Below the pieces are notes generated by a model. It did not search any database and was not told the DNA's origin. It saw nothing but the letters and a program-made list of their open reading frames with translations. From Balneolaceae bacterium (GTDB lineage: Bacteria > Bacteroidota > Rhodothermia > Balneolales > Balneolaceae), in the NCBI GenBank assembly GCA_007127745.1, contig SKYV01000255.1, positions 1 to 35,170 of the forward strand: 35,170 nucleotides of DNA, written 5' to 3'. A program made the translations under genes and the position numbers. Each line of letters opens with the position of its first letter. Positions within the stretch are counted from its first letter, which is position 1. Below, piece after piece: positions 32,794-35,170 of the stretch.

Positions 32794-34119
32794 ATGTGGT
32801 TCAATAAAAAGGAAAATAAATCAACAGACAGATATTTTACGGAAGAGTGGGCTCGTAAATGGAAACAATCCATCAACAATAGTGCCGATTACAAACGGAA
32901 AGGAAAAAGCTGGAATGCACCATTGATCCTTAAATTTAATCCGGTTCCTGAACATCTTCAAAAAGAAGAAGCCATTGGATTTTTTCTGAGCCTGAAATAT
33001 GGTGAATGCACCGAATTACGATTTGCCCGGATTTCCGATACTGATATCAGTGATGTTATTCTGACGGCTGATGAAGAAACCTGGATACGGTTGATTGAGG
33101 AAAAAAAAGACCCAACTTCGGCCATCATGAAAGGGAGGCTGAAACTGGAAAAAGGAAGTCTTTTACTTTTGTCGACCCAGAAAAAAGCAGCAACATCTCT
33201 TCTTGAAACCGCACCGGTGTACAAAAAATCGAAACAGAAAAGAGAATTTGTAGAACGGATAAAAAAAAGAAAAGCAGAAGATTCTACTCACAATCAATTC
33301 AAAACTGCCAAAAATGGGCTGGATCTCGACAGCTACCCCATGCAGTTATTTCAGAAGGCGAAAAAGTTCGGCATATGGAATCCTGCTGATATTGATTTTA
33401 CATCAGACAGAGAACAGTGGCGCAAATTCGCAGATGATGAGAAAGAAATCATTATTCACCTATCCTCTCTTTTTATTGCCGGCGAAGAAGCGGTAACCTT
33501 AGATCTTCTCCCCCTCATCCAAACTATTGCCCGTGAAGGAAGAGTTGAGGAGGAAATTTTTCTGACCTCTTTTTTATGGGAGGAAGCCAAGCATACCGAG
33601 TTTTTCTCACTATTTGTGCGCGATGTAATCGGTTATCAGCCCAATTTTGAATCGTATCACGCCCCTTTTTATAAAAAACTATTTTACGACCAGCTACCTG
33701 CCGACCTTACACAATTGAATACTGACAGTTCTCCCCTGGCCCAGATAAAAGCTTCAGGAACCTATAATATGATTGTGGAAGGCACCCTTGCCGAAACCGG
33801 TTATGCCGCCTTTTCAAAAATGCTGAACGAAAACAATCTGCTTCCCGGTTTACAGGAAGGAATCCAAAAACTGAAACAGGATGAATCCCGTCATATCGCT
33901 TACGGACTTTATCTGATCAACCGGCTGCTTCAGGACAATCCCGACCTGAAGCTTCCGTTTGAAAATCATCTTGAGGAGCTTCTTGATGACGCTACAAACA
34001 TCATTCATGAAATTTTCGAACCTTATGAGGTAGTACCCTTTGGTCTGGAAAAAGAGTGGTTTTTAAATTATGCGATTAAACAATTTCAGCTCAGAACGAA
34101 TAAATTGGGGATTTTTTAG
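32794..34119 (+). CDS. Fusion of SCP2 lipid-binding domain with R2-like ligand-binding oxidase (R2lox)
   Basis: 441 residues in two domains. Residues about 20-140 are SCP2-like: ADYKRKGKSWNAPLILKF, YGECTELRFARISD, SDVILTADEETWIRLI and KKDPTSAIMKGRLKLEKG match the SCP2 pattern W..AI, VI.G....W..., DP..AIM.G.L.L. A lysine-rich linker follows (141-178). Residues about 183-441 are R2lox. They show metal ligands Glu231, Glu264, His267, Glu329, Glu364 and His367, with Val234 and Tyr324 placed like the Val/Tyr ether pair of known R2lox proteins. The spacing 231 to 264 equals that of the mycobacterial enzyme, and later ligands are one residue shorter. R2lox binds a Mn/Fe pair and a fatty acid. Automatic annotation may call it ribonucleotide reductase beta chain, which is unlikely. 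No Shine-Dalgarno precedes the ATG. Confidence 0.88.
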   Translation: MWFNKKENKSTDRYFTEEWARKWKQSINNSADYKRKGKSWNAPLILKFNPVPEHLQKEEAIGFFLSLKYGECTELRFARISDTDISDVILTADEETWIRLIEEKKDPTSAIMKGRLKLEKGSLLLLSTQKKAATSLLETAPVYKKSKQKREFVERIKKRKAEDSTHNQFKTAKNGLDLDSYPMQLFQKAKKFGIWNPADIDFTSDREQWRKFADDEKEIIIHLSSLFIAGEEAVTLDLLPLIQTIAREGRVEEEIFLTSFLWEEAKHTEFFSLFVRDVIGYQPNFESYHAPFYKKLFYDQLPADLTQLNTDSSPLAQIKASGTYNMIVEGTLAETGYAAFSKMLNENNLLPGLQEGIQKLKQDESRHIAYGLYLINRLLQDNPDLKLPFENHLEELLDDATNIIHEIFEPYEVVPFGLEKEWFLNYAIKQFQLRTNKLGIF

Positions 34120-34152: not shown

Positions 34153-35170
34153 ATGGTAAAAAAGCTACAGTTAAACCTATTCATCGTTATTATCTTTTTC
34201 TTTTTAATGGAGTCGCTTTTTGCACAACAATCTTCATCACTTTTCACAATTGTAAGTGAAGCTGAAGCAGAATGGGCGGGCAAGGTTCAGGCCGATCTTG
34301 AATTTGTACAGATTGAGTTTAGTGATCAAAAAATATCCCGCATTCAAAACCGGCAGGCCGAGGAGTTTGTGATAACATCGCCCGAAGGTATTGAATACTC
34401 AGTATCGATTCAGCGGGTTATTGATTTCGGTGACGGAAACTGGTCAGTGTCCGGCCATATAAACGATAAATGGAAAAATTCCTTAACACTCTCCTTTTCC
34501 GATGATAAAGCTCTGTCAAGCATAAATATAACTACCGATCACAATTTTTATCAGCTTCGGTATGATGAAACCCTGGATAGCCACATCATGGTAAAAATCG
34601 ACCCTCATGAAACCGATGTGATTTCCTGTGGTGTAGATCATGATCAGATACTGTATCATTCCCACAGAAACATTGATGAAACAAGAGAGAAGCAGCAATC
34701 ACCGCAACCAGAACAGGACTCCCATACCACCATCGACGTAATGATTGTCTATACACCTGCAGCAAGAAATTGGGCTAACCAGCCCGGAAATGGTGGAATT
34801 GATAACATTATTAACGAGGCTATGAATATGGCACAAATGTCAACTGACGCAGCGCAGATTAATTTGGAATTTCGATTGGTTCACCGTGCATTGATTGAAT
34901 ACAGTGAATCTGGAGATTCAGGTACAGACCTGAGAAGATTAACAGCTTCTCCATCATTCAATCCATTTGGCTCAGAGTATGCCGGTTATCTGAATGAAGT
35001 ACACGATATGCGAAATGAATATGGCGCCGATCTTGTGGCCATGTTTACCCTGGCTGACGATGTTGGCGGATTAGCCTGGTTATTGCGGGATGCACAGGGT
35101 TGGCCGGAGATCGGTTTCTCAATTACAAGAGTTCAACAGGCAGCGCGGTCACCAACACACGCTCACGAAA
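34153..35170 (+). CDS. Secreted zinc metallopeptidase (reprolysin-like), 3' end outside window
   Basis: From ATG 34153 an open frame of 339 residues reaches the right edge. A signal peptide (MVKKLQLNLFIVIIFFFLME, then SLFAQ) precedes a propeptide-like beta-rich region of about 170 residues. The catalytic domain opens with IDVMIVYTPAARNWANQPGN, GIDNIINEAMNMAQMSTDAA and INLEFRLVHRALIEYSESGD, then YGADLVAMFTLADDVGGLAW. The fragment stops at THAHE, apparently the first part of the HExxHxxGxxH zinc motif. The single cysteine seen, in DVISCGVDHD within the propeptide, could act as a cysteine switch (inference). It begins 33 bases after the R2lox fusion gene and may be co-transcribed. Full domain content, such as a C-terminal sorting domain, is unseen. 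Confidence 0.85.
   Translation, partial: MVKKLQLNLFIVIIFFFLMESLFAQQSSSLFTIVSEAEAEWAGKVQADLEFVQIEFSDQKISRIQNRQAEEFVITSPEGIEYSVSIQRVIDFGDGNWSVSGHINDKWKNSLTLSFSDDKALSSINITTDHNFYQLRYDETLDSHIMVKIDPHETDVISCGVDHDQILYHSHRNIDETREKQQSPQPEQDSHTTIDVMIVYTPAARNWANQPGNGGIDNIINEAMNMAQMSTDAAQINLEFRLVHRALIEYSESGDSGTDLRRLTASPSFNPFGSEYAGYLNEVHDMRNEYGADLVAMFTLADDVGGLAWLLRDAQGWPEIGFSITRVQQAARSPTHAHE

Follow-up and report, generated by a model that had tools for sequence, protein, structure and literature searches.

Published work on R2-like ligand-binding oxidases (R2lox) describes a Mn/Fe cofactor, an ether cross-link and a fatty-acid tunnel (PMC6399176, PMC10867098), with a fatty acid bound at the cofactor (PMC6399176). 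The preliminary description of the locus studied here held that these proteins have no settled reaction, which agrees with a 2019 statement that their physiological function had not been identified (PMC6399176) and to which a 2024 claim of alkane hydroxylation by GkR2loxI has to be added (PMC10867098). That claim is based on the loss of alkanes with crude lysate, and E202A/H205A exchanges in GkR2loxI led to only a slight decrease in this loss; the same paper places an alcohol dehydrogenase (ADH) and an aldehyde dehydrogenase (ALDH) in the GkR2loxI gene cluster and refers to earlier copurification of C16/C18 hydroxy fatty acids (PMC10867098). In the preliminary description, no earlier account of a fusion of R2lox with an SCP2 lipid carrier domain was known, and our literature search, with most subscription papers outside its scope, likewise gave no paper on an SCP2-R2lox fusion. 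The main text of PMC10867098 contains no term that starts with "SCP" or "sterol."

The window, a stretch of 35,170 nucleotides from a Balneolaceae bacterium (GenBank assembly GCA_007127745.1, contig SKYV01000255.1), carries such a fusion gene at 32794..34119 on the + strand. Its open reading frame is intact, beginning with an ATG at 32794 and encoding 441 residues with no internal stops, and the coordinates include the stop codon. The claim that an SCP2 domain and an R2lox domain share one chain was borne out by Pfam, NCBIfam, phmmer and Foldseek, and both domains scored above the curated cut-offs of their profiles. The borders lie near those first given: the SCP2 domain spans residues 13-140 (32830..33213, + strand) rather than 20-140, as judged from phmmer (13-140), Pfam (62-119), the structural model and its fold match, and the R2lox domain spans residues about 165-438 (33289..34107, + strand, counted from residue 166) rather than 183-441, as judged from NCBIfam, PDB sequence matches and Foldseek. 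The linker between them (residues 141-165, 33214..33288, + strand) was modeled at low confidence; in the full-length AlphaFold2 model, built with 41 sequences (pLDDT 90.8, pTM 0.67), the blocks at residues 141-170 drop to 64-70. Across 21 fused proteins, the linker between A140 and G175 measures 32-62 residues. On the same strand, 33 bases downstream of the fusion gene, a further open frame (34153-35169) is cut by the end of the window; no Pfam match was found in its visible part, and homologues lie downstream of the fused gene in 10 compared loci.

The Pfam profile for SCP2, PF02036, matched residues 62-119 (E 1.8e-6, 28.6 bits versus a cut-off of 21.3), within the region to which the domain had been assigned, and it was also matched by 22 of 26 relatives at E 0.01 or better. 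When PDB sequences were searched with phmmer, residues 13-140 aligned with the SCP2 protein of Thermus (1wfr, E 2.2e-14; 2cx7, E 4.1e-14). An AlphaFold2 model of residues 1-145 reached a pLDDT of 89.7 and a pTM of 0.82, and its best Foldseek match in the PDB was again 2cx7 (E 7.5e-11, TM 0.84 by target length). After 2cx7 and 1wfr, the order of fold matches continued with eukaryotic SCP2 proteins, the SCP2 domain of UbiJ and the SCP2-like part of the alkylsulfatases Pisa1 and SdsA1. Residues F15, W19, W40, G70, C72, W97 and G121 are kept in both fused and separate members. Cys72 (33007..33009, + strand) is invariant in all 21 fused proteins aligned. We considered and rejected this cysteine as a hallmark of the fusion because 21 of the 23 unlinked domains, counted after matches under 90 profile positions had been dropped, have it too, as does the Thermus SCP2 protein.

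The C-terminal part was assigned to R2lox by NCBIfam NF006202 (E 3.2e-105, 351.7 bits versus a cut-off of 315) and matched R2lox chains among PDB sequences at E 5e-55 to 1e-61; with the whole model as query, the first 34 PDB matches in Foldseek were all R2lox. We aligned the domain with GkR2loxI (PDB 4hr0), taking the residue numbering from PMC10867098 and PDB titles. All six metal ligands proposed in the preliminary description align with the 4hr0 ligands, namely, Glu231 (33484..33486, E69 of GkR2loxI), Glu264 (33583..33585, E102), His267 (33592..33594, H105), Glu329 (33778..33780, E167), Glu364 (33883..33885, E202) and His367 (33892..33894, H205), all on the + strand. The proposed cross-link pair, Val234 (33493..33495, + strand) and Tyr324 (33763..33765, + strand), likewise falls on V72 and Y162 of 4hr0, and no mismatch was found at either site. 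Ala333 (33790..33792, + strand) corresponds to A171, a fatty-acid tunnel position that is occupied by Ala in R2lox but by Phe throughout the R2 groups of ribonucleotide reductase (RNR) (PMC6399176). These nine sites and G230 are identical in 99 of 99 aligned R2-type domains (38 fused, 12 SCP2-adjacent, 9 about one gene away and 40 with no SCP2 in the stretch). Y337 (Y175 of GkR2loxI) differs in 5 of the 99.

How often the fusion occurs, a question raised along with the preliminary description, was addressed by a genome survey, which placed it in 51 genomes from several phyla among the matches listed. Within the order of the window, 39 of 128 genomes had an SCP2 or R2lox match at E 1e-20 or better, and in 36 of these 39 a single open frame covers both parts, with truncation at a contig end in some. 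Only one part was found in each of G026, G048 and G100, at contig starts in G026 and G048; in G006 and G103 both parts were found as one match. The genome search gave no SCP2-R2lox match in some congeners (for example, G005, G015 and G016). The named isolate Rhodohalobacter halophilus (L033) has the same protein as L015, whose genome is listed in the window's genus, so that the window probably derives from a Rhodohalobacter-like member of the Balneolaceae. A sample of 395 genomes across the phylum added four fusions from other orders (G649, G652, G724 and G731), one adjacent SCP2/R2lox pair (G505) and R2lox without SCP2 in G559, G710, G738 and G780. Beyond the phylum, the fusion was found in 6 of 150 genomes of Gemmatimonadota, 2 of 40 of Calditrichota, 2 of 82 of KSB1 and 1 of 201 of Chloroflexota, and in none of the 198 genomes from the class of an Actinobacteria metagenome-assembled genome.

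The two parts are also linked as separate genes. In two loci, L050 and L051, a shared ATGA holds both the stop codon of SCP2 and the probable start codon of R2lox. Among 299 genomes of the Bacilli class, with up to five candidates scored per genome, we found 16 SCP2 loci, spread over 15 genomes. Each was examined together with its flanks, and 15 lie no more than 3 kb from an R2lox-type gene. In 14 of the 15 linked pairs, the two genes share a strand and are no more than about 1.1 kb apart; the R2lox gene of G163 is on the strand opposite to SCP2, and the SCP2 locus of G172 is without an R2lox match. In G177, the gene paired with SCP2 encodes a diverged paralogue of the R2 type (106 bits) in which the Val and Tyr are kept. 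Collectively, the fusion, the ATGA overlap and the gene linkage in Bacilli support a functional coupling of SCP2 and R2lox.

At L155 (4027-5580), the SCP2 and R2lox genes share a reading frame and are separated by just one stop codon, an arrangement that is a natural intermediate between gene pair and fusion. At L156 (2899-4387), only 53 bases separate a weak SCP2 gene from the gene of a divergent R2-type protein (106 bits) that keeps the Val/Tyr and metal residues; this may be another SCP2 linkage, distinct from the first. The loci L138-L140, L160 and L161 of Gemmatimonadota form a divergent R2lox-like clade, which in two genomes, G909 and G915, has an adjacent or nearby SCP2 gene. Lastly, G134 (C1:2349460-2361986) and similar Chloroflexota genomes have R2lox together with several further R2-type matches, a weak one being about 11 kb away.

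The coupling does not extend to every member of either family. An SCP2 gene is not obligatory for R2lox given that no SCP2 is linked in 40 of the 54 Bacilli genomes whose R2lox match reached E 1e-50 or better. We hand-picked 20 Bacilli R2lox loci of this kind for comparison; the closest shares 54.6% identity with the Gk segment, and an SCP2 match was absent from all 20 stretches. For Gemmatimonadota, 1 of the 36 separate SCP2 matches listed is near an R2lox-type gene (G909), and G915 has an adjacent SCP2/R2lox-type pair; for Chloroflexota, no separate SCP2 gene among the matches listed has an R2lox match within 3 kb. SCP2 domains of this type are thus mostly unlinked in these two phyla and therefore have other uses too.

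To compare the history of the fused proteins, R2 matches under 200 profile positions were dropped. In the R2 tree, three changes are needed for the fused proteins, which form a main clade (Balneolota, KSB1, Calditrichota and Kutchimonas) and a Gemmatimonadota group; when G1312 was added, it fell outside both fused groups. In the best trees, the fusions of Gemmatimonadota and Chloroflexota do not group with the main fused clade, and a quick, weakly supported SCP2 tree, which left out four SCP2 fragments, placed most SCP2 parts of the Gemmatimonadota fusions among the unlinked SCP2 domains of that phylum. These placements would suggest repeated independent fusion. We do not claim it, given that a single fused clade was not rejected by the AU test (p 0.173) on a tree that left out near-copies from Balneolota and nine R2-type rows that were divergent or had long branches.

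The neighborhoods of the fused and separate genes were also compared. In 20 of the 29 fused loci compared, mnmG stands divergent beside the fused gene, and beyond it lie rsmG, a WYL regulator and gyrA. No lipid pathway gene adjoining the fused gene was found in the compared Balneolaceae loci; acyl-CoA dehydrogenase-type genes lie downstream of two fused genes, L041 and L045 (AidB-like). At the 15 linked Bacilli loci, searched by blastp with representatives and with neighbor names taken from Pfam, an ABC1-type kinase is near 13, ALDH near 9 and a Zn ADH near 7, and these counts are not independent, the loci being related to each other. The corresponding counts were ALDH 8/20, ADH 2/20 and ABC1 2/20 for the R2lox loci without SCP2 and 0/23 for all three at unlinked SCP2 loci, a rough comparison in which the stretches cover about 8-17 kb (linked), 12 kb (R2lox without SCP2) and 4-8 kb (unlinked SCP2). 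Because ALDH is also near R2lox without SCP2, it is no argument for SCP2 itself. An ABC1 homologue was not found in the stretches around the fused genes. The ABC1 atypical kinase is of the UbiB/COQ8 type (L154:5958-7751), with homologues at L054, L142-L150, L153 and L155. Other recurring neighbors in Bacilli are a GAF/LuxR-type regulator (L146:1751-3319) and a small protein with no Pfam match (L153:1249-1686), each with homologues.

If a lipid monooxygenase had a dedicated carrier, just this combination of a lipid carrier and an oxidase with a lipid tunnel would be expected, and we give a probability of roughly 55% to the reading of the fusion protein as a lipid monooxygenase that has its own carrier on the same chain. 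In this reading, SCP2 would bind a long-chain aliphatic molecule of the fatty acid, alkane or alcohol class and, by way of the flexible linker, exchange it with the hydrophobic R2lox tunnel. The R2lox domain would assemble the Mn/Fe cofactor, form the Val234-Tyr324 ether link once and then use O2 to oxidize a C-H bond of the lipid. In Bacilli with separate genes, those for the next oxidations, from alcohol to aldehyde to acid, are often found alongside. We infer lipid binding by this SCP2 domain, the exchange, the reaction and the substrate. The preliminary description had proposed that the oxidase acts on, or is loaded with, a lipid delivered by its own N-terminal domain; that the two parts work together was strengthened by the fusion and linkage data, while delivery is the inferred portion of that proposal. 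Substrate delivery is most likely the role of SCP2, possibly with product removal too, and product removal or tethering of the enzyme would be equally possible. An alkane hydroxylase would fit the claim made for GkR2loxI, with the gene context of the Bacilli relatives being the only pointer that way.

Two readings would make the fusion something other than a carrier-linked oxidase. Joining of two genes through an assembly or frame error could be suspected given that most members come from draft assemblies; we rejected it as next to impossible because the same single frame recurs in 51 genomes, including that of R. halophilus. The protein might also be an RNR small subunit with an added domain, as the Pfam name of the fold (Ribonuc_red_sm, residues 194-409) would have it. 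This too was rejected as highly improbable, since the best RNR beta model scored 43.7 bits (cut-off 309) versus 351.7 for the R2lox model, and the tunnel position holds Ala333 where RNR R2 proteins have Phe. Moreover, the genome of the window has a class II RNR, NrdJ, above its family cut-off, and the fusion protein is therefore not needed as an RNR subunit.

The other two readings accept both domains and differ over what SCP2 does. It could have lost lipid binding and serve only in folding, dimer formation or regulation; the faster divergence of the SCP2 part than of the R2lox part in the fused proteins compared and a Pfam match of only 58 residues point in this direction. We consider such a loss quite unlikely, given the retained aromatic, glycine and cysteine positions, a model with the whole SCP2 fold and the recurrence of the linkage as fusion, overlap and neighbor genes. 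Alternatively, the SCP2 domain may dock the oxidase to the membrane or to a multienzyme complex, or release the product into the membrane, with R2lox loading its own lipid. R2lox alone does copurify with fatty acid (PMC6399176), UbiJ-SCP2 is among the fold matches, and the SCP2 domain of UbiJ has been proposed to act in membrane contact and ubiquinone release (PMC9499169). The frequency of the ABC1-type kinase at linked Bacilli loci compared with the two control sets, with their differing stretch lengths, also favors this role, against which stands the lack of an ABC1 homologue in the stretches around the fused genes. Docking or product exit is possible, if somewhat unlikely.

Structurally, R2lox is a well-studied Mn/Fe enzyme. 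A lipid-carrier partner that is fused in several phyla and a neighbor gene in others narrows the question of R2lox function to a lipid, and having both in one chain makes carrier loading, cofactor assembly and turnover testable together. The ADH, ALDH and ABC1-type kinase genes near the Bacilli pairs are candidate pathway steps.

In comparison with known systems, GkR2loxI (GK2771, PDB 4hr0) shares with the fusion protein the whole R2lox domain, the metal ligands, the Val/Tyr pair and the tunnel alanine; unlike the fusion protein, the solved R2lox chains matched in the PDB have no SCP2 domain. Among solved structures, TT1886 of Thermus thermophilus (1wfr, 2cx7) is nearest to the N-terminal domain by sequence as well as by fold; it is a stand-alone protein that is about 28% identical and has the same Trp/Gly/Cys pattern. 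The bacterial alkylsulfatases SdsA1 and Pisa1, recognized by fold match, carry an SCP2-like domain on the chain of an enzyme that acts on alkyl chains, the enzyme being a sulfatase and not an oxidase. Their domain is C-terminal, at the other end than in the fusion protein, and has a substrate-recruiting role. UbiJ forms a coiled coil with UbiK, and the ubiquinone system uses flavin hydroxylases. As an accessory protein of the ubiquinone metabolon in Escherichia coli, UbiJ links an SCP2 fold to lipid hydroxylation (PMC9499169); unlike the fusion, it is a separate protein, with 12-13% identity. The ABC1 link in Bacilli recalls UbiJ with UbiB, an analogy that would cast SCP2, R2lox and the ABC1/UbiB-type kinase as a Mn/Fe counterpart of the ubiquinone metabolon, in which SCP2 presents a membrane lipid to the heterobimetallic monooxygenase and, in Balneolota, does so within one chain. 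We regard this counterpart as unlikely; if it proved true, R2lox would gain a defined lipid-presenting partner, one that points to its physiological substrate.
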